Virus record (IMG/VR): IMGVR_UViG_3300044489_000068
Span: 1-38,477 of that record
From: a virus
DNA length: 38,477 nucleotides
Strand: one strand, 5' to 3'
In this document: in pieces, positions 599 through 10,700 of the stretch
Numbering within the stretch: position 1 is the stretch's first letter
How the letters are laid out: each line of letters opens with the position of its first letter
Translations under genes and position numbers: made by a program
Notes under the pieces: generated by a model
Database searches by the model: none
Told to the model about the DNA's origin: nothing
The model's input: only the letters and a program-made list of their open reading frames with translations

Positions 599-1135
599 TC
601 AATGTGTTGGTTTGCTTGGCACGCTTTTTGGCGTGTGTCCTGCGTGTTGCCTGGGGTCAATACCCCATCTTTCTATGATAAATTGCTCGGCATCTTGCCT
701 GTCAGTGAACTTTTCTCCACGATTGCCCTTGTTGTAAATTCTTCGTTTTCGATTTTTCCCGTACACATCACGAACTATATAGTGGATCTGCCATCCATCT
801 TTCTTTCCGTAAAATACCGTAGGGGCATAAACGGGGCTCTCTAAATCTTTTAGGATGATCTTGGTTTCCACCTTCTTTTGTTTCATGTGGTATGCAATGT
901 GATGATACCGTTGCATCAATGCCAGATTACTTGGGTCATCATTTGTTGGGTCATGATCCAAGTGGTGCACCAGGTATCCAGGAGGGATTTCTTCAAAAGA
1001 TGGATTATAGAGAAGCCAAATATAATTGGCATTTGCCATTGTGATTCTTTGGGAACCATTTTTCAAAGTGACTTCCCATCGATCTTTTCTGAATGTTTTG
1101 GAAAGAACATCCAAATCGTGTATCCACATTGTCAT
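599..1135 (-). CDS. HNH homing-type endonuclease
   Basis: This 178-residue protein carries an HNH nuclease core: His57-His58 (YLVHHLDHDPTNDD), Asn70 (PSNLALM) and His78-His79 (RYHHIAYH). These match the metal-binding and general-base positions of HNH enzymes. The C-terminal half (about 95-165) has the look of a small beta-rich DNA-binding region that reads repeated basic patches (KNRKRR). Its start codon overlaps the integrase stop as ATGA, so it is probably co-translated with the integrase. It lies between int and attP, a common landing place for selfish endonuclease genes. It probably acts as a free-standing homing nuclease. A role in integration is possible but unsupported. Confidence 0.8.
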   Translation of the reverse strand: MTMWIHDLDVLSKTFRKDRWEVTLKNGSQRITMANANYIWLLYNPSFEEIPPGYLVHHLDHDPTNDDPSNLALMQRYHHIAYHMKQKKVETKIILKDLESPVYAPTVFYGKKDGWQIHYIVRDVYGKNRKRRIYNKGNRGEKFTDRQDAEQFIIERWGIDPRQHAGHTPKSVPSKPTH

Positions 1136-2280
1136 TTGATCCTTTTTATTTTTGAATCTTTCGGAATTGCAGCTTCATACACGTTCAAAACCTGCTCCGG
1201 TTTCACGCGGTAATACCGCTCGAATGCCTTGTTCGTGGAATGGAAACTTGCCTGCTTGAGCTGTTCCGGGGTGAAGTCTTCCCCGAGGGCGATAACGGTA
1301 CTGTGCCGGGTCCCTCCGTAAAGATCTACTCCTTCGATTCCAAGATTTTCACATGCGCGCTTCCACCATTTATAAAGATACCTCTGGCCAAATCCATCAC
1401 CGGCTCTGGCACCCGAATGCGTGTGCAGATGTCGGAAGAAGGGCAGTCCCGGGAATGAGAGCGGCAACGAAGATATCAGTTGAACGTCACTTTCCAGGAG
1501 TGGGACGATTTTCGGTTTTTTCTCTTTCGGGTTCGGGATAAGCAGGAGTCCGTGCTCTCGGTTGATTTCCCCTTCTTTGATCTTTATCAACTCACCGGGA
1601 CGGATTGAAATGTACGTTGCAAGCCATTTGACAGCAATCCAAATTCTAGGATTAACCTCCCAGGAAATACTTCTAAGTTCATCAACAATCCTCTCCTGGG
1701 TATTCTTCTCGATGGTTTTTCTAAACGACAGTTCAAATGGTACTTCCGGCAATTCTGGTAGCTGAGACTGATGCAAAACCCTCCTGCGTGCAATCCAATT
1801 AAAAAATGACCGGAGAACTGAACGGGCATTGGATCGAGACTTGCTTGAAAGATCCTTAAGTGACTTATAGAGAAAGTCTTCCAGTTCAGCATAGCCGATC
1901 TCCTTGATGTTCCTGTCTCCCCATTCCAGTACAGCTTTCTGCATGTAGTTGTTGATGGAGTCCCAGGAGTGCCGTTTCACCTGTTCCCGCTTCACCTCCA
2001 GGAAACCGTTGGCAAGGTTTCTGAAACTCAACGGGTTGGAAGCCTGATAGTCTCGAACATCAAAGCTTCCCTCGTCGGTCTTGAAGCGTAACCCGGTAAG
2101 AAAGCGGGCTGCCTGATCATAGGTGCTGAACTTCTTCCAGATTTGCCGACCGAAGCGAACCACAAAATAGGTGGCCCGTTCCTTGGGATGCTTTGGACAA
2201 CAGACCGCATTTCGGCCATTGTCCTTCATTCCACTTCCGCAAATGACACATCTCTCAGATGAGTAAATGCCACCCAGCAT
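1132..2280 (-). CDS. int: tyrosine recombinase / phage integrase
   Basis: This site-specific recombinase would insert the phage at the ssrA-derived attachment site. With the start chosen here it has 382 residues. A zinc-binding-like knuckle (C11, C14, C27/C28, H31) is followed by an arm/core-binding region (about 40-190) and the catalytic domain. Arg227 (SIRPGEL), Arg325 (GTRHST), His347 and Tyr356/357 (FERYYR) fit the R...RxxH...Y set. The usual box II histidine is replaced (GGTRHS). The ATG at 2280 has a perfect AAGGAGGA six bases upstream. A longer frame beginning at 2382 has no such site and would run through a candidate promoter. The stop overlaps the HNH gene. Confidence 0.93.
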   Translation of the reverse strand: MLGGIYSSERCVICGSGMKDNGRNAVCCPKHPKERATYFVVRFGRQIWKKFSTYDQAARFLTGLRFKTDEGSFDVRDYQASNPLSFRNLANGFLEVKREQVKRHSWDSINNYMQKAVLEWGDRNIKEIGYAELEDFLYKSLKDLSSKSRSNARSVLRSFFNWIARRRVLHQSQLPELPEVPFELSFRKTIEKNTQERIVDELRSISWEVNPRIWIAVKWLATYISIRPGELIKIKEGEINREHGLLLIPNPKEKKPKIVPLLESDVQLISSLPLSFPGLPFFRHLHTHSGARAGDGFGQRYLYKWWKRACENLGIEGVDLYGGTRHSTVIALGEDFTPEQLKQASFHSTNKAFERYYRVKPEQVLNVYEAAIPKDSKIKRIK

Positions 2281-2302
2281 ACACAATCCTCCTTCTCTCT
2301 GT

Positions 2303-2347
2303 TGTCCGGACAGAAGGATTGTAGAGGATTGTGATGCAGGGAAGCAA
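2303..2347 (-). promoter_or_regulatory. candidate int promoter with TGTCCGGACA dyad
   Basis: On the minus strand a TTGCTT (-35, 2342-2347) and a TACAAT (-10, 2318-2323) are 18 bases apart. A perfect 10-base palindrome TGTCCGGACA (2303-2312) lies just downstream, where transcription would begin, followed by the integrase ribosome site. A protein bound there could block int expression. The -35 match is weak. No binding protein is identified. Confidence 0.4.
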
Positions 2348-2422
2348 CCGTTCATTCTTATGACTTTCGTCTGATCGGACACATCATTGGGTCATTGTTA
2401 AGCCCGCAGTTGGGACCATACC

Positions 2423-2490
2423 TCCACCTCCAGGCATTGCATGGAACGCCCCGCCACAGGCACGTGCGAGGCGCAAGCCATGGAGGTGGA
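2423..2490. repeat. inverted repeat in the int-exonuclease gap
   Basis: TCCACCTCCA (2423-2432) is repeated exactly in inverted form as TGGAGGTGGA (2481-2490). The loop is GC-rich, and a small AACCG-GCAA-CGGTT hairpin follows at about 2501-2514. The repeat sits between the exonuclease stop (2529) and the integrase promoter. It could slow or end leftward transcripts, though no T-run follows. The gap from 2348 to 2528 shows no gene. Confidence 0.4.
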
Positions 2491-2528
2491 CTGTCCGGCC
2501 AACCGGCAACGGTTTCCGGTGGTATGAG

Positions 2529-3617
2529 TCAAATATCCCGGTCCTTGGTGATCGTAAACGCTTTAGATGTTTTGATGTCCAACATGGCCTTTAGGGCCAG
2601 CTCGCGGTCCTTGATGCCGGCCTTCTTTATGATTTTTTCGAGACCCGCCTTGGTCAGCGATAGATTGTCCCACAGAAGCTCCTTGGAAACGCCCCAGGCG
2701 GACAAGGTCTTCATGAGCCCGGCCAGGTCCTTGGGTTTCCATGATTCTTTGTCGACAAGCCCCGCAGCCTTGCCCGCTGCATACACTGTCCCGTTTATTG
2801 CTGCATAACCCTTAAGGAGGCCTTTGATTTGGTCTACAATCGATTCTGCGAATAAGACGAACCGTAGGGCGGTTTCGGCTTCCTGTGGCGTAGAAACGGC
2901 ACATGGGACCCTTAAAATGGGTAGCTTCGATTCCTGCACAAGAGCGGTGCCTATTGAGTCCTTTTCGGGACACCCGGGAACTGTGCACCAATCACACAGG
3001 TTACATGCCACTGCAGGCCATTCGGTTCTGCTGTTGACATCCCAACATATCTCCATGAGTTCATCTCTGATTTCCTTTATCTCCTCACGGCTATAGGTGC
3101 GGCGTGTTACGGTGTTGGACGATACGTTGTAAACCACCGTTTCCACCTGCTCAGCCTCAGGTTCGTTGGCGAGAGCAAGAACCGCGTAGAATTCGGTCTG
3201 CTTGGGGTCGACCTCCCAATGTCCCGTCTTCCAATCAACCACGGTGGGCGTGAAACCATCGAGATAATAGTAGTCAAAAATGCCCCGTAGCACCGCTTCT
3301 GTGGAATCGAAATCACATTGACGTTCATGCGAGTCCATGGCAACCTTCACTTCCGGGCTGCCTCCAGATCGTGTGATAGTCGCAAACTCCGAAACCTTCC
3401 AGTTATAGAGCATGGCGTTGTATTTGTCTTCGTCAACCCCTTCAGGACACGCTATTTTATAGTTTGAGAGTAATAGCGCTTCAATTGCCTTGTGGGTAGC
3501 AGAACCCAGCTCCATTTCGGGAGTCTGTGGCTCCTTATGCGTTCGAGCGACCTGCATCTTGTGGAAACGGAACGGACACTCAAGGTTTTTCAACCCCGAA
3601 TAACTGAGCGTAATCAT
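2529..3617 (-). CDS. PD-(D/E)XK exonuclease, Cas4/AddB-like with iron-sulfur cysteines
   Basis: This is a RecB-type nuclease, expected to resect DNA ends for the annealing protein encoded just upstream. Visible active-site positions are His42 (GSATHKAIE), Asp115 (RGIFDYYY), Asp128-x-Lys130 (VVDWKTG) and Gln140 (KQTEFYAV). Cys14 together with the Cys205/208/211/216 cluster (CNLCDWCTVPGC) matches the split cysteine set that holds a 4Fe-4S cluster in Cas4 and AddB nucleases. About 130 further residues (230-362) form a helical tail of unknown role. Its start overlaps the bet stop (ATGA), which implies coupled synthesis of the recombination pair. Family assignment is firm. Its polarity and partner are inferred. 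Confidence 0.85.
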   Translation of the reverse strand: MITLSYSGLKNLECPFRFHKMQVARTHKEPQTPEMELGSATHKAIEALLLSNYKIACPEGVDEDKYNAMLYNWKVSEFATITRSGGSPEVKVAMDSHERQCDFDSTEAVLRGIFDYYYLDGFTPTVVDWKTGHWEVDPKQTEFYAVLALANEPEAEQVETVVYNVSSNTVTRRTYSREEIKEIRDELMEICWDVNSRTEWPAVACNLCDWCTVPGCPEKDSIGTALVQESKLPILRVPCAVSTPQEAETALRFVLFAESIVDQIKGLLKGYAAINGTVYAAGKAAGLVDKESWKPKDLAGLMKTLSAWGVSKELLWDNLSLTKAGLEKIIKKAGIKDRELALKAMLDIKTSKAFTITKDRDI

Positions 3618-4702
3618 ATGAGGTCCTCCCCTTCTTCCGGAGCTGTTTCACCGAGACCCGCGCACCAGCCGTCATTGACCCTGCGTTCGCATTGGTTGCG
3701 ACAGAACGATTCATAGACTGGCTCGGACTCGTATGGACACTGAATCTTAGCTCCGTTGGAGTCTTCTGTGGATTGAGGTGTGGTCTGAGCGGCGATGGCA
3801 AGCAGCAAATCCTTGGCCTCGTTTTCCCTAAGGAAGGAGAGCTCCTGGTGGCCGATGGACTTGAGGAATGCCTTAACCATGTCGGACGCTTCCTTGGTGT
3901 TGCCTCGGAGGATATCTCTGAGAGCAAGGAGTTGCTCTGGGGTGGCGCCACAAGTGGATAGTTCTGGACTTCCGAAGACGGTTGAGTCAACCTGGAATTT
4001 AATCCTGCGCCTTCTGCCCGATTGCTGAGACTCATCGTTAGCGGCCTGATCCGGGGGCGATGCGTCAGGTTTACCCACATCAACATAATCAGCCATCGGG
4101 ATTGGCGTGTGAGGCAGGTCCTCATTCGTACCTAGTTCCTCTGGGGAGTACATCCCGGCAAGGTCTTCGGGGAAAGCCTCCCGAAGCGCCTGAACCAGAG
4201 CAATCTTACGGATCATGGTCGCAGGTTTCTCCTGCCACATCTTATTGGGTGTTCCGTCGTTCTTTTTCGCTACATACTCCTGCAAAGAGACTTCCACCCG
4301 GAGAGGAAAGGCCCACCCTTCCCTATAGATTTCGGCCCACCCTCCAGCAAGTTTTGTCCCTGGAGGTAATACTCCATCCGTGTAGCCTATCGACCCCTGG
4401 TTGTCCGTGGAGTACCAGATGACCCCGGCCTTAAACCCGCGACAGTCCTTGGCTCGCATGGCACGCTTGAGGAATGCCTCCTTCCCGGTGATGATGGATG
4501 CCGGCTGGGTGCCATACTTGATCAGGTAGGCGTCCCGCAAAAACGGGTTGAGCTTTTGGAACTTGCACAGAGCCAGGAACATGGCAACCTCACCGTCTGA
4601 TACGGCCCCGTTGCCGTTTACCAGATACTTCCGGACTATCGAGGGAGACAGGGTGAGTTCCCCTGAGTCAGTGTTGATTTTTACCAGTCCTTTTTCATCC
4701 AT
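3614..4702 (-). CDS. bet: Bet/RecT-family single-strand annealing protein
   Basis: The N-terminal 190 residues match the Redbeta/Bet family: FLALCKFQKLNPFLRDAYLI at about 43-62, then ASIITGKEAFLKRA, and a conserved end ALVQALREAFPEDLAGMY. These proteins coat single strands and anneal them during phage recombination. At 362 residues it is about 100 longer than lambda Bet. The extension is acidic and low in complexity, ending in a Cys cluster (about 319-346: C..C...C.......C) that may bind zinc or touch the nuclease or host SSB. It lies between a zinc-ribbon gene (8-base overlap) and the exonuclease gene, forming a typical two-gene recombination unit. Confidence 0.93.
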   Translation of the reverse strand: MDEKGLVKINTDSGELTLSPSIVRKYLVNGNGAVSDGEVAMFLALCKFQKLNPFLRDAYLIKYGTQPASIITGKEAFLKRAMRAKDCRGFKAGVIWYSTDNQGSIGYTDGVLPPGTKLAGGWAEIYREGWAFPLRVEVSLQEYVAKKNDGTPNKMWQEKPATMIRKIALVQALREAFPEDLAGMYSPEELGTNEDLPHTPIPMADYVDVGKPDASPPDQAANDESQQSGRRRRIKFQVDSTVFGSPELSTCGATPEQLLALRDILRGNTKEASDMVKAFLKSIGHQELSFLRENEAKDLLLAIAAQTTPQSTEDSNGAKIQCPYESEPVYESFCRNQCERRVNDGWCAGLGETAPEEGEDLI

Positions 4703-4928
4703 GGTTCTTCTCCTTATTGTTGTGTCGGCTCCACACCCACACCTTGCGGCAGGTCCTGCACTCGAATTTAGCCAAGCCTAGGCCGGTAACCGGGTTCCAA
4801 TGGCCGGCGGTCAGATAGTTGCCGCCACCGTGACAGTAGGGACAAATTCCCGGCAGGCCATAGCCGGTGTCCTCCCTGCCTGCGCGGCGCCAGTCGCAAT
4901 AATCCTTCAGCTTCTTAACGGGGTTCAT
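4695..4928 (-). CDS. small zinc-ribbon protein
   Basis: The 77-residue product has CPYCHGGG and CRTC pairs, a classic CxxC...CxxC zinc ribbon, and a basic end (WSRHNNKEKNHG). The ATG at 4928 has a GGAGG nine bases upstream. A longer frame from 4970 would contain that ribosome site and is less likely. It overlaps the start of bet by eight bases, so it belongs to the leftward recombination operon. Such ribbons often bind DNA or a partner protein. No specific role can be read from the sequence. Confidence 0.7.
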   Translation of the reverse strand: MNPVKKLKDYCDWRRAGREDTGYGLPGICPYCHGGGNYLTAGHWNPVTGLGLAKFECRTCRKVWVWSRHNNKEKNHG

Positions 4929-5248
4929 GGTCGTGGACCTCCCTCCTGATGTTTGTTGAAAGTGCGGCACGGCCTCCTGGCTCCCGTTACCTACCCGATT
5001 CGCGGACGGCAGGCGGACGGACTTAGATTAGCCGCTCCCGTTCCCCAGCTCCCCTGTGAGGGAGCGCCGCGCTATTGCCTGTTTCTTCCACCGCTGCTGC
5101 CGCCCGCTGGATCTTTAGTCCCGAAGGCCCCCGCTTCGGATGCTCGGTGGGTAAAGGTTCACTTCATCAATCCCCGCTCATTGCGTCTCCACCTTGCCCG
5201 GTGCACCTGCTTCATGCGGGGCTGCCGGTGCGGGTAGATGGGGGGCAA
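4929..5248. other. GC-rich gap without a supported gene
   Basis: No frame here combines a start, a ribosome site and gene-like composition. Two hairpins are visible: GCTCCC/GGGAGC (5048-5053, 5060-5065) and CCGAAG/CTTCGG (5121-5126, 5134-5139). They lie between the methyltransferase stop and the zinc-ribbon gene on a leftward transcript, so they may act as processing or attenuation structures. Neither has a T-run in either direction. Confidence 0.4.
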
Positions 5249-6658
5249 TCATCCAAACATTGATATCTGTTTCCCCTTCTGATTTTCTTCGTCGAATATG
5301 TTTTTGACTGCCATTCTGAAGTATTCTTCCTTGAGTTCAATCCCCGTGAAGTGACGATTCAACTTGACCGCCACCACGCCTTCACTGCCAATTCCCATAA
5401 ATGGGCTCAGGATGTGCTCGCCAGGCCCAGACCACAACCGTATGCAGGCATCAATTACATCAAGCTGAAGCGGACAGATGTGGCGCACGTCGCCGTCACT
5501 CATTTCCTTAGTGCGCCTGTTTAGCGTATTCGTCTCATCAACCCAGTCCCAAATCGGAGAGGCCAACTTGATCCATTCTTCGTTTGATGTTTCTTGGTTC
5601 CTGATCGGGGGAGCTTCGCCTGGTTTCTGGAATTTCATCAGAAAGTCAGGGATGGCAAATCGGCTTTGCCTTGAATCCTTGCGAAGCGTTTTGAATAGGA
5701 GAGCATGAGCTTTCGTGCGAATCGCTTGCGCCTGTGGGTTTTTACCGATTGTGGCTTTACCATGATAGATGAAACCGGCACCCTCAAATAACTCCCGGCA
5801 CTCAGCCGGAAAGTCACGGATACCAGAAAAGCCTTGAATGCTCTTGAATATTGCCAGCGGGGCGATGTGCATAGCAACAATGCATCCTGGCTTGATTACA
5901 CGGTAGAGTTGATGGGCAAAGAAGCTGAAATGTAAGGCAAACTCATCATCCAGAGAATTGCAGTTCCCTATGTCCTGGTGCTTATCCGTGTAGGAATATA
6001 GATCCGCGAATGGTGGAGAGAATACAGCCAACTCAAACTGGTTCTCAGGCATCTGAGCCATAACCGAGATGCAGTCCCCGTGGATCAACCGGAATGATTC
6101 CCCATAAACATCAGGGAGAATTGTTTCAGTGGTGTTGATTTTGGCCGGGATATTCTTCGCAGCGTACTGTTTCAAATCGTCTAGTAGCGACTCAATGTAA
6201 AGGTGTTCCTGGAACGACGAATCTTCCAGATAATCTTTCTGTTTTCTCATCACATTTTCTAGCATAGGAAGTTCGGCCTTGGTGTATGGGATGTAAACCT
6301 TGACCTGCTCCGTCTGCCCGTATCTTTGTATGCGACCAACGGCCTGATAGTAGCTTTCGAATGAATCAGCAGACCAAGAGAATATGCAGATGTGGCAATG
6401 CTGGAGATTGAGGCCCATTCCGAGCAATCGAGGCTTGCTGATCAATATCCGCAGTTGCCCCTTTCTGAACTCATCCAATATTTTCAGCCTGAGAGATTGT
6501 TTTGTATTGCCGGTCAAGTGTATGGCATCCGGGATAAGTCTGACGAGAATGTCCCCTTCTTCATCATATTGAGTCCAGATGATGACCTGCTCATTCGGAT
6601 GGTCAGCAACTATGTCTGCAATCCTCGTTGGTTTATTGCTTTCGATTTGCGTCACCAT
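5249..6658 (-). CDS. SNF2 helicase C-terminal lobe fused to beta-class DNA methyltransferase
   Basis: Residues 1-125 are the second RecA-like lobe of a SNF2 helicase, with motif V-like GMGLNLQ and motif VI QAVGRIQRYGQ (105-115). Residues 185-469 are a DNA methyltransferase in beta-class order: catalytic SPPF at 214-217, then the AdoMet loop SPFMGIGSEG (418-427) and FTGIELKEEYF. SPPF favours N4-cytosine or N6-adenine methylation. The helicase N-terminal lobe is the separate overlapping gene just upstream. The ATG at 6658 has only a weak AAAGGGG site, so reinitiation or frameshifting may make this product. It would modify phage DNA, perhaps moving along DNA under helicase power. Confidence 0.88.
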   Translation of the reverse strand: MVTQIESNKPTRIADIVADHPNEQVIIWTQYDEEGDILVRLIPDAIHLTGNTKQSLRLKILDEFRKGQLRILISKPRLLGMGLNLQHCHICIFSWSADSFESYYQAVGRIQRYGQTEQVKVYIPYTKAELPMLENVMRKQKDYLEDSSFQEHLYIESLLDDLKQYAAKNIPAKINTTETILPDVYGESFRLIHGDCISVMAQMPENQFELAVFSPPFADLYSYTDKHQDIGNCNSLDDEFALHFSFFAHQLYRVIKPGCIVAMHIAPLAIFKSIQGFSGIRDFPAECRELFEGAGFIYHGKATIGKNPQAQAIRTKAHALLFKTLRKDSRQSRFAIPDFLMKFQKPGEAPPIRNQETSNEEWIKLASPIWDWVDETNTLNRRTKEMSDGDVRHICPLQLDVIDACIRLWSGPGEHILSPFMGIGSEGVVAVKLNRHFTGIELKEEYFRMAVKNIFDEENQKGKQISMFG

Positions 6659-7667
6659 ACAAAAACCCCTTTGAAATTTGGCTCAGTTTGTTCCGATTAG
6701 TGATTCCACCAGCTACCATTTTGAACATATTGAGTTGGCCGTTTTGTGTGTTCTCGTGGATCAATTTGATCTGATGATCCGTCAAACCAACATCCACCCA
6801 AATAACCTCTGGGGGTACAAGTCCGATCAGGTTGTCTTCAAATCCATAGCGAGCTGGATGCTTAAGAAAGATGCTCCAAGAGGCCAGGAATTGATAAAAA
6901 GCTCCTTTTGCATGGGGCTTGAGGAAGAAGTCGTTGCCGGACCCAGTATTGAAGAAGAACTTCGTGAAGAACTGTTTGGAATTGTCGATGTAATCAAGAA
7001 AGAGTGCATGGTTTGCGTATTCTTGGCGATCATTTGGTGCGGGTGTTGCGGTGCAGGCGAGTTTGAATGGAATCCCCTTGCAGGCATTGATGATATTCGT
7101 GCGAATCTTCCCGGTGTCGTTTTTGAGGCAGGACGATTCATCAAGGACCACCGCGCCCACTTCATCCTGTAACCGGAATATATCCCTGAACTTGTCTACG
7201 TTAACGATGCCGATGGGAGTCCCGTGCCATGCTGTGTTTTTGATAGACAAATACCTGTTGATGTTTCCATCGCAGATCATGTTGATGTCGGCAATATTGC
7301 TGTACCCATACCATTTCATTTGCTCTTCAAGTGTTTGTTTTATTAGGTGCAGTTGAGTGATGATGATGGTTTTTTTGGGATAGATGGCCCTTGAAACATG
7401 CCTTACCCATTCTAGGAACATGGCTGTTTTGCCAAGCCCGATGTCGGCGAATATGGCGAACCGTTGCTTTTTGAGGCAGAGCTTCACGATGAATTGTTGA
7501 TAGTCAAATAGATATGGAGCTAATTGAATGAAGCCTGAGACATCATTCCCATTGAAGTCCTCCACTAAGATTCGGTTTCCTTCTACCCGGTGAATTGCTG
7601 ATTTCTTGGCGGAAAGAAACGTCTGATAAGATTCCAGGGTGTAATCTTTTATTTCAATTTTCTGCAT
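6633..7667 (-). CDS. SNF2/DEAD-like helicase N-terminal lobe
   Basis: This 344-residue protein has the first RecA-like lobe of an SNF2-type ATPase: Walker A DIGLGKTA (75-82), motif Ia-like ITQLHLIKQ, Walker B VVLDESS (173-179) and motif III ACTATPAPND (204-213). It stops abruptly after GFLYGDANRKQ, where intact homologues continue into the second lobe. That lobe begins in the next gene after a 26-base overlap, in the +1 frame. It is the first gene of the leftward operon, with GGAGG just before the ATG and a promoter with operators 30-80 bases upstream. Alone it should lack full ATPase function, so the two products must associate or be joined. Confidence 0.88.
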   Translation of the reverse strand: MQKIEIKDYTLESYQTFLSAKKSAIHRVEGNRILVEDFNGNDVSGFIQLAPYLFDYQQFIVKLCLKKQRFAIFADIGLGKTAMFLEWVRHVSRAIYPKKTIIITQLHLIKQTLEEQMKWYGYSNIADINMICDGNINRYLSIKNTAWHGTPIGIVNVDKFRDIFRLQDEVGAVVLDESSCLKNDTGKIRTNIINACKGIPFKLACTATPAPNDRQEYANHALFLDYIDNSKQFFTKFFFNTGSGNDFFLKPHAKGAFYQFLASWSIFLKHPARYGFEDNLIGLVPPEVIWVDVGLTDHQIKLIHENTQNGQLNMFKMVAGGITNRNKLSQISKGFLYGDANRKQ

Positions 7668-7695
7668 ACCGCCTCCGTTGTGTGATCGTGGAGGC

Positions 7696-7745
7696 AGAAT
7701 ATCATCGAGTTTGCATCAATGCAACACAAAAATGCAGCGATGCAA
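7696..7745 (-). promoter_or_regulatory. leftward early promoter (PL-like) with two operators
   Basis: On the minus strand a -35 TTGCAT (7719-7724) and a -10 TATTCT (7696-7701) are 17 bases apart, pointing at the helicase gene. Operator TTGCATCAATGCAA (7711-7724) covers the -35. A second copy, ATGCAGCGATGCAA (7732-7745), starts exactly 21 bases further out, two helical turns. The same TTGCA-N4-TGCAA dyad recurs between the two regulator genes at 8200-8245. This is the layout of a phage repressor operator cluster. Confidence 0.7.
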
Positions 7746-7763
7746 CAATGAAATGAAAAAAAA

Positions 7764-8171
7764 TTAAGGAGTGTGATTTTTACTTCTTGTAGTCATATCT
7801 GACAGGTGATCTAAGTCTTTCATGAGAGTTTCTTTGAATGGTCCTGTAAGAACGTTGGCAAGTTTTTGGGTTACTGAAAGATCCTTTTCCAAAATGCCTA
7901 TAATATAGGCAAGATCCTTGGCTGTGGCGCTGCTTATGGCTTCGCTCATAGACCCTCCCAAAGCTATGATCAGTCCGATAGCGCCGGCGAGATCAGGAAT
8001 AGATCGCTTAAAATGCCACCTCCATACGGTTGACTTATCTCTTCCAACTTTCTCGCCAATCGATTGGTAGGTTTCACTATTTTCTACGATCACCTTAAGT
8101 TGAATTAGGCCGGACACATAATCAACAATTGCTTCCGTTAGTTTTTGGGAGAGTTCTACTTTTTTTCTCAT
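7764..8171 (-). CDS. helix-turn-helix regulator (candidate repressor)
   Basis: The 135-residue protein has a helix-turn-helix at about residues 34-55 (YQSIGEKVGRDKSTVWRW), followed by a helical C-terminal half (65-130) that could dimerise. It has no LexA-type Ser/Lys protease site. It is transcribed away from the 8259 regulator, and each gene is flanked by TTGCA-N4-TGCAA operators. It is therefore either the lysogeny repressor or its antagonist. The ATG lacks a ribosome site (GACTCACT precedes it). A GATAAA at about 8185-8190 with a TTGCAG 18 bases further upstream would give a very short leader. Which of the two regulators maintains lysogeny cannot be decided here. Confidence 0.75.
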   Translation of the reverse strand: MRKKVELSQKLTEAIVDYVSGLIQLKVIVENSETYQSIGEKVGRDKSTVWRWHFKRSIPDLAGAIGLIIALGGSMSEAISSATAKDLAYIIGILEKDLSVTQKLANVLTGPFKETLMKDLDHLSDMTTRSKNHTP

Positions 8172-8199
8172 AGTGAGTCAACGTTTATCACTTTTTTGG

Positions 8200-8249
8200 T
8201 TGCATAGCTGCAAAAAAGCCTTGCAATTTGGTTGCAGTGCTGCAACAAT
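8200..8249. promoter_or_regulatory. divergent immunity operators and promoters
   Basis: Two perfect dyads lie here: TTGCATAGCTGCAA (8200-8213) and TTGCAGTGCTGCAA (8232-8245). A lone half-site TTGCAA at 8221 is again 21 bases from the first. For the plus strand, TTGCAA (8221-8226) and AACAAT (8244-8249) are 17 bases apart and would start a transcript almost at the ATG at 8259. For the minus strand, TTGCAG and GATAAA fit the regulator at 8171. A repressor bound here would control both directions. Confidence 0.72.
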
Positions 8250-8258
8250 TTATGCGCC

Positions 8259-8480
8259 ATGGACAAATTATCCAGATACTTAAAGGAACAAGGTATTTCA
8301 GCGAGTAGGTTCGCAAGGGAACTTGGAATACAACCATCCACCCTTCTGCGAAATATCTCAGGGAAAACTGTTGTGAGCACTAAGCTGGCCTTAATGTACT
8401 CGCAAAAAACAGGAATTTCCTTGGAAGATCTCTTAAACGACAACGGTTCACTCCCCCATCCGGACGGGGCCTCTGGATAA
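8259..8480 (+). CDS. Cro/CI-like DNA-binding protein
   Basis: This 73-residue protein is mostly one helix-turn-helix domain (about 14-34: ASRFARELGIQPSTLLRNIS), with a short third part (ISLEDLLNDNG) typical of the XRE family. It is the size of Cro. It opens the rightward transcript and faces the 8171 regulator across shared operators. The ATG at 8259 has no ribosome site. The predicted transcript would begin about three bases before it, which suggests leaderless translation. An upstream TTG in frame at 8232 lies inside an operator and is unlikely. It probably competes for the TTGCA operators and sets the lytic/lysogenic choice. Confidence 0.78.
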   Translation: MDKLSRYLKEQGISASRFARELGIQPSTLLRNISGKTVVSTKLALMYSQKTGISLEDLLNDNGSLPHPDGASG

Positions 8481-8800
8481 GTCCGGGCATACCTCCCTCT
8501 CCTAAGGGTTGGCGTAGAGTCCCGCAAAGTAGGCTATGCTCACTCCGTCAGTGAGTATCCGAAGGGACAGCCGGAAACACGCTCCCAGGAATTTTGGTTT
8601 TCTTCGCCTGGGAGCACGAGGATGATGCGGGTTGGCCAAGTAGTAAGGCACCGGTCTCATAAGCCGGTGAGCGAGGGTGCAATTCCCTCACCCGCTCCCA
8701 ATAGTGTGTCCCTACCAGCCCAGGGACACAAACCCAAGGGGTGATGTCAAAACGGACTCTCATCATCCCCTGGGTTTCAATTAACCAGTAGGAGAACACA
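8481..8800 (+). other. structured non-coding region with four strong hairpins around a tRNA
   Basis: No gene is visible. Perfect or near-perfect stems lie at 8536-8544/8550-8558 (one G-T pair), 8581-8589/8607-8615 (GCTCCCAGG/CCTGGGAGC), 8705-8713/8722-8730 (TGTGTCCCT/AGGGACACA) and 8731-8746/8761-8776 (15 pairs with one bulge on each strand). The tRNA at 8626-8700 sits between the second and third. No stem has a T-run, so these look like RNA processing or leader structures rather than terminators. The last one ends 24 bases before the HNH start codon. Confidence 0.6.
8626..8700 (+). tRNA. tRNA with anticodon CAT (Met or lysidine-type Ile)
   Basis: A 75-base cloverleaf can be drawn. The acceptor is TGCGGGT/ACCCGCT (8626-8632/8690-8696), the D stem GCC/GGC, the anticodon stem CCGGT/GCCGG with loop CTCATAA (anticodon CAT at 8658-8660), the variable loop five bases, the T stem GAGGG/CCCTC and the T loop TGCAATT. 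The discriminator is C and CCA is encoded (8698-8700). Odd points are a T-T mismatch at pair 1:72, a D loop without GG, and a non-standard T loop. The 1:72 mismatch recalls initiator tRNA, but the anticodon stem lacks the three G-C pairs of tRNA-fMet. Confidence 0.75.
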
Positions 8801-9585: not shown

Positions 9586-9843
9586 ATGGATTACCAACAA
9601 TCGCTAACTCCCGTGTTTGACACCTGTCCGAAGGGTTGGGTTAATCCCTGCCTGGAAATTTGCACCAGAGACATCAGGACGTGCTGCTATTTCCGGCCAC
9701 GCGGACCCCAGCGCATCGCGCTCAAGTACAGAAGGGAGCTGTTCCGCTGCGACCGTTGCGGCGATACGAACGAGCGTAATTTCGAAGCGTCCTTGGTGCT
9801 GTGTGTCAAGTGCCAATCCGAGGTGCGGAAGGGTCGGCGGTAG
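9586..9843 (+). CDS. cysteine-rich zinc-binding protein
   Basis: The 85-residue product has nine cysteines. A CDRCGD...CVKC zinc ribbon fills the second half (about 54-77), and a looser set (CPKGWVNPCLEICTRDIRTCC) lies near the N-terminus. A GGAGGT site lies seven bases before the ATG at 9586, which argues against a start at 9571. It directly precedes the PAPS-reductase-like gene (8-base gap), so the two may work together. The cysteine set could bind zinc or an iron-sulfur cluster. No function is recognised. Confidence 0.6.
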   Translation: MDYQQSLTPVFDTCPKGWVNPCLEICTRDIRTCCYFRPRGPQRIALKYRRELFRCDRCGDTNERNFEASLVLCVKCQSEVRKGRR

Positions 9844-9851
9844 GAGAAGCA

Positions 9852-10700
9852 ATGCCTAGAGCACAGCAAATGTCCCTAACTCCCCTGCAAACGATGGTTG
9901 ATGAGGCCATCGATTTCATGCGGGCAAACGAGCCACCGGAAGGATATACCATGGCCGACTCGTTCGGCAAAGACAGTACGGTGCTTCTGGAGTTGGCGCG
10001 GATGGCTGGGGTTAGGTTTGTCCACATTCACAACCGCACTGGAATCGACCCGCCGGAACTGGTGGCCTTTGGGAAAAGGACCAGGCCAAACGTGATCTGG
10101 ATTCCGCCTCGCATGACCATGTGGGAGGGAATTAGGAAAAAGTTCCCTCCGACCATCCAACAGCGTTGGTGTTGTAGTGAACTCAAGAAACACAAGCTAT
10201 CAGGTCTGCCCACGTCAATATTGGTTGGTATCCGGACGGAAGAGTCGTGGAAGAGGAAAAGCAGGCCCAGGATTTCCAGTGTTCCCGCTGAACGAATTGC
10301 CCATTACAAGCCTATCTTCCACTGGAGTGAATGGCACGTGTGGGAATTCATTGAGTCGATGAACTTGCCTTATTGCCATCTTTACGATGAGGGGTTTGAC
10401 CGACTCGGATGCTGTGTATGTCCCATGATTACGAGTTCAAGTATGGCAAAGGTGAACCAACACCGTAAGCGTTGGCCTGGGTTCTATAAAGCGTTCGAAC
10501 ATGCTGTGACGTGGTGGTTCTGGAATAAGGCCTGGTGGGACAGGTTTGTCTGGAAGCGCCCCGAGCGGTTCCTAGATGCTTGGTATCGGAGCTTCAAAAC
10601 TGAATCGTCCAACAGCAGAACACAGTTAGCGGTGGAGTTGGACCACCACGGAAGTCAGTTGAGCTTCCTGAATGGGGCGCAGAATAGGAGGTTGTCATGA
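9852..10700 (+). CDS. PAPS-reductase-like / ATP-pyrophosphatase family enzyme
   Basis: This 282-residue protein has the PP-loop SFGKDS (37-42) of the adenine-nucleotide alpha-hydrolase superfamily. It also has Arg105-Trp-Cys107-Cys108 (RWCCSELKKHK) and a late cysteine group GCCVCPM (187-192), as in phage PAPS-reductase-like and DndC-like proteins. DndC members use such cysteines for an iron-sulfur cluster in DNA phosphorothioation, while PAPS reductases reduce sulfate esters. The chosen ATG follows AGGAGA, and an earlier start would overlap the previous gene. A C5-cytosine methyltransferase lies three genes on, so a part in DNA modification or defence evasion is possible but not shown. Confidence 0.85.
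   Translation: MPRAQQMSLTPLQTMVDEAIDFMRANEPPEGYTMADSFGKDSTVLLELARMAGVRFVHIHNRTGIDPPELVAFGKRTRPNVIWIPPRMTMWEGIRKKFPPTIQQRWCCSELKKHKLSGLPTSILVGIRTEESWKRKSRPRISSVPAERIAHYKPIFHWSEWHVWEFIESMNLPYCHLYDEGFDRLGCCVCPMITSSSMAKVNQHRKRWPGFYKAFEHAVTWWFWNKAWWDRFVWKRPERFLDAWYRSFKTESSNSRTQLAVELDHHGSQLSFLNGAQNRRLS

Follow-up and report, generated by a model that had tools for sequence, protein, structure and literature searches.

A TTGCA-N4-TGCAA dyad array flanking a repressor-position gene as the candidate lysogeny switch of an uncultivated phage

Do the TTGCA-N4-TGCAA dyads that flank a small regulator gene of this virus represent the operators of a lysogeny switch, and which proteins would read them? We addressed this question for the complete IMG/VR record IMGVR_UViG_3300044489_000068, i.e. 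the whole stretch of 38,477 bases analysed here (the window), so that any statement on the whole genome refers to the window.

Dyads, half-site and neighbouring genes

The earlier note had proposed a genome-wide scan for the motif, occurrence at chance level being the outcome that would speak against an operator array. Our pattern scan of all 38,477 bases identified the exact dyad TTGCANNNNTGCAA (TTGCA-N4-TGCAA) at three sites, i.e. 7711-7724, 8200-8213 and 8232-8245, with no further exact copy elsewhere in the record and 0 matches of the reversed control pattern. In 300 dinucleotide-preserving shuffles of the record the exact dyad was found 0.09 times on average and once at most, and 5000 shuffles of positions 7668-8258 likewise resulted in a maximum of one exact dyad, compared to three observed. 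Allowing up to two mismatches, the whole window contains 31 dyads with 24 expected, which is near chance. We therefore regard the dyad array as a genuine feature that clearly exceeds chance and can be given a functional interpretation.

The three exact dyads, together with a one-mismatch copy and a half-site, are confined to two short intergenic gaps flanking the gene of the regulator P1. Within the left gap, the putative left operator 1 (TTGCATCAATGCAA, 7711-7724) is an exact dyad, while the putative left operator 2 (ATGCAGCGATGCAA, 7732-7745), 21 bp apart from it, carries one mismatch, both being located upstream of a leftward gene starting at 7667. The right gap lies between the divergent gene starts at 8171 (minus strand) and 8259 (plus strand) and contains the putative right operator 1 (TTGCATAGCTGCAA, 8200-8213), an exact dyad close to the P1 start, a TTGCA half-site on the plus strand (8221-8225) and the putative right operator 2 (TTGCAGTGCTGCAA, 8232-8245), an exact dyad directly 5' of the gene for the second regulator, P2. 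The half-site is 21 bp apart from right operator 1 and 11 bp apart from right operator 2, the two full dyads being separated by 32 bp. These positions agree with the earlier description of sites at the leftward promoter and between divergent regulators. Of the four dyads plus half-site counted previously, three dyads are exact and the half-site at 8221 is real, but the copy at 7732 has one mismatch; the 21-base spacing described for both sites is half right, because it holds for the left pair whereas on the right it separates the dyad at 8200 from the half-site at 8221.

The left operators probably control the leading gene of the leftward early operon, a gene (6633-7667, minus strand) for the N-terminal half of a helicase; the remaining operon (1132-6658, minus strand) encodes the C-terminal helicase half with a methyltransferase, RecT, a PD-(D/E)XK exonuclease and an integrase. 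A strict scan returned no consensus promoter; reading by eye, we found the leftward promoter candidate TTGCAT-N17-TATTCT, in which an arm of left operator 1 may double as the -35 element. The helicase (5249-7667, minus strand) is split, its N-terminal half (6633-7667) and its C-terminal half (5249-6658), the latter fused to an N6/N4 methyltransferase, being encoded in different frames with an overlap of 26 bases. Four helicase relatives (L004-L007; 36-41% identical) have the helicase in a single frame of 535-652 amino acids and the methyltransferase, in L004-L006, as a separate gene; none of the four shows a repeated dyad of the TTGCA-N4-TGCAA kind upstream. RecT, used as a query in viral and genome contigs, pointed to neither a host nor close kin. 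To the right, a tRNA-Met (anticodon CAT; 8626-8700, plus strand) is located directly 3' of P2 and ahead of an HNH endonuclease gene, followed by methyltransferase, terminase, portal, protease and tape measure genes. At 9801-10700 (plus strand), a gene of the phosphoadenosine phosphosulfate reductase family precedes a DNA methyltransferase gene.

Candidate regulators P1 and P2

The 73-residue protein P2 (8259-8480, plus strand) is a Cro-like HTH protein containing Thr28 and Arg31, as judged from its matches to HTH_3 (2e-6), to repressor PHROGs and, as its best solved relative among the PDB sequences, to HigA of the Proteus vulgaris plasmid Rts1 (1.3e-5). Its divergent neighbour P1 (7764-8171, minus strand; 135 amino acids) occupies the position of cI. 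Its matches are limited to HTH families and the scores are weak (HTH_23, 0.004; repressor PHROGs, approximately 0.01), with no solved relative below E 0.3 among the PDB sequences; it aligns, however, with Cro/C1 HTH proteins adjoining the same dyad in other phages. These data suggest a Cro/C1-like HTH around residues 33-80 containing Thr48 and Arg51, followed by a helical C-terminal half. The predicted structures of both proteins are of low confidence (mean pLDDT of 62 for P1 and 60 for P2). Protein queries against phages, viral contigs and genome contigs yielded no close relatives of P1 or P2, the only matches of P2 being Lactobacillus phage regulators with 39% identity, and the DNA of positions 7600-8600 had no match among phage isolates.

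Neither P1 nor P2 matches an S24 peptidase or the CII family in Pfam. As P1 is devoid of an S24 domain, induction would probably not proceed via RecA-stimulated self-cleavage, and we infer a route via an antirepressor or another mechanism.

Recurrence of the dyad and a shared recognition helix

Searching viral contigs for two TTGCA-N4-TGCAA dyads separated by a gap of 5-35, we found such tandem pairs in at least 120 stretches, compared to 18, 7 and 18 for three control palindromes with arms of the same base composition as TTGCA, i.e. the pairs are at least 6-7 times commoner than the controls. The operator had been called distinct before, which is correct in that its word differs from that of lambda, but it is not unique, more than 100 other viral-contig stretches carrying the tandem dyad. 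A good part of these pairs is located between divergent Cro/C1 regulators, some adjoin non-regulatory genes, and among 99 frames flanking the pairs the top Pfam families are HTH_3, HTH_31 and HTH_26 (15, 15 and 11 members). Spacings of 21-23 and 31-33 bp are the most frequent within the pairs, and an additional group at 41-46 bp derives partly from related contigs; when related contigs were merged into 61 groups, the helical clustering persisted, although at a modest level (Rayleigh p of approximately 0.003 at 10.5 bp). The tandem sites of the window are helically spaced, as would be expected with cooperative binding. A literature search for the literal motif TTGCA-N4-TGCAA returned no match.

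Larger arrays were also observed: L013 contains a run of five exact dyads, for the most part spaced by 21 bp (7039-7156), L078 three exact dyads exactly 31 bp apart (6570-6645), and L113 and L042/L118 have three or more sites. In about 20 marine contigs (e.g. L126, 1929-2480; also L010, L021, L046, L048, L054, L067, L072 and others) pairs spaced by 21-22 bp lie upstream of an HTH protein of 180-200 amino acids resembling, by eye, a small terminase subunit, so that the pair there may serve in packaging or autoregulation. In L020, L029 and L111 the layout of the window is repeated: two exact dyads separate divergent Cro/C1 genes, and another exact site lies past the small leftward regulator, immediately ahead of the following leftward gene. 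These three contigs differ from the window by a low G+C content, other gene content, an integrase-like gene on the opposite side, a single distal site and a pair spacing of 29 bp.

At the HigA promoter, upstream of higB, we found TTGCACATCGTGTAA and TTACACACCATGTAA, TTRCA-N5-TGYAA dyads 30 bp apart, which we read as putative HigA operators. HigA Arg40 reads a YpG step, Thr37 being the other key residue (PMC6987408), and Thr28/Arg31 of P2 as well as Thr48/Arg51 of P1 align with this pair. The HigA sites resemble the window dyads in the half-site TTRCA/TGYAA and in their separation by approximately three helical turns; they differ in having an N5 instead of an N4 centre, TTGCA-N4-TGCAA itself being absent from the HigA promoter. 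Furthermore, HigA is a toxin-antitoxin autoregulator, whereas we noticed no HigB-type partner toxin gene next to P2 or elsewhere in the window. The arginine is present in 12 of 13 motif-adjacent HTH families of other phages but in only 8 of 20 HTHs elsewhere in viral records (Fisher p 0.003 when counted by family and 0.018 when counted by phage group). This association is suggestive only, because we scored the alignments by eye, applied the test post hoc and used a search profile that derived in part from the same proteins.

In a diverse set of phages, one operator word thus appears tied to a single signature of the recognition helix. We tentatively propose, while considering it somewhat less probable than the opposite, that TTGCA-N4-TGCAA is a recurring operator type of many unrelated temperate phages, read via a conserved Thr-x-x-Arg helix of small Cro/C1 regulators. 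If true, immunity specificity would be partly predictable from sequence, distant phages would possibly be cross-immune, and the phage studied here would represent a compact form, its arrays being separated by 0.5 kb and a self-cleaving repressor being absent. If the link between word and helix holds in binding, metagenomic sequence could allow superinfection immunity to be predicted within this phage group. Whether the dyad and the Thr-x-x-Arg helix constitute a general operator code of temperate phages is the most interesting question arising from this locus.

A proposed switch and its relation to lambda and 434

Considering the sites, their neighbouring genes and the recurrence of the dyad, we regard it as highly probable that the locus serves a temperate tailed phage as its lysogeny/immunity switch, in which dimers of P1 and P2 bind 14-bp TTGCA-N4-TGCAA operators at the early promoters. 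According to this model, both regulators, P1 in the place of cI and P2 in that of cro, would occupy these sites, those at 7711 and 7732 covering the leftward early promoter and those at 8200 and 8232 together with the half-site at 8221 covering the divergent promoters of P1 and P2. As the sites are approximately two and three helical turns apart, dimers would be placed on the same face of the DNA and neighbours could cooperate. Occupied sites would shut off transcription in both outward directions, and the decision between lysis and lysogeny would be set by the competition of P1 and P2 for the shared sites. The sites and their positions, the order of the surrounding genes, the excess over chance and the recurrence beside Cro/C1 regulators elsewhere were observed directly; the pairing of proteins with sites, the cooperativity and the role of P1 as lysogenic repressor are those parts of the model that we infer. 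The switch, and hence likely the immunity determinant, is thereby located in an uncultivated temperate phage for which we found no close isolate relative.

Binding of the dyads by both P1 and P2 is likely, as judged from homology. A single reader, most plausibly the HigA/Cro-like P2 with P1 having another role or site, is a possibility of clearly lower rank: it would fit the clear HTH_3 and HigA matches of P2 and the marginal HTH of P1, which is without a solved relative below E 0.3, but P1 has a Ser-Thr-x-x-Arg recognition helix as well and can be aligned with HTH proteins that adjoin the dyad in other phages. About equally doubtful is a reversal of roles, with P2 as the lysogenic repressor and P1 as the Cro-like protein. 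The best small matches of P1, found in L031-type phages, are indeed located at the Cro position facing a 273-residue S24-type repressor; P1 is, however, situated between both arrays like lambda cI, and the 73-residue P2 heads the rightward structural side, so that by analogy position favours P1 as the lysogenic repressor.

Cooperative or looped repression over about 490 bases had also been suggested for this locus. We consider a DNA loop of approximately 0.5 kb that contains P1 and bridges both arrays, as between oL and oR of lambda, rather unlikely. The same site does occur in two separated arrays flanking the regulator gene, L020, L029 and L111 share this layout, and the helical C-terminal half of P1, in a model of low confidence, could support oligomers; yet no oligomerisation domain was identified, the centre-to-centre distances of the arrays (468-521 bp) come close to whole turns if 10.4 bp per turn is assumed but to half turns with 10.5, so that the helical phase argues neither way, and two promoters each requiring an operator account for two arrays without a loop. 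That the dyads are bound by a host factor or an activator of the CII type, and not by the phage's own repressors, is very improbable. The lambda CII site is TTGC-N6-TTGC and has the TTGC word in common with the dyad, but the repeats of the dyad are inverted around an N4 centre, P1 and P2 lack a match to the CII family, and Cro/C1 genes of varied phages have the dyad next to them. The CII-type direct repeat TTGC-N6-TTGC has 0 matches in the window.

The preferred model with P1 and P2 as competing regulators places the locus beside the switch of lambda, in which the order is PL operon, oL, cI, oR and cro. The window shows the corresponding order of leftward early operon, operators, leftward P1, operators and rightward Cro-like P2, the leftward operon encoding a RecT-type recombinase, an exonuclease and an integrase. 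As in lambda, a second array of the same operator is present at the leftward early promoter (7711, 7732), and a divergent pair of small HTH proteins, P1 being weakly scored in this respect, encloses the dyads at 8200 and 8232. The earlier proposal of a design like oL/oR of lambda is thus borne out by the arrays around the repressor-position gene and by the integrase, RecT and exonuclease genes of the leftward operon. The operator of 434 is a 14-bp dyad with a spacing of approximately 21 bp, similar to that of the window. Differences from lambda concern the operator word, the number of sites, with two dyads per array and a half-site in the right one compared to three full operators, the distance between the arrays of approximately 0.5 kb versus approximately 2.4 kb in lambda, and the 135-residue protein without an S24 peptidase at the position where lambda has a self-cleaving S24 repressor. 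By its layout the switch belongs to the lambdoid repressor/operator class, but it has neither the three-operator arrays nor the self-cleaving repressor of lambda itself.
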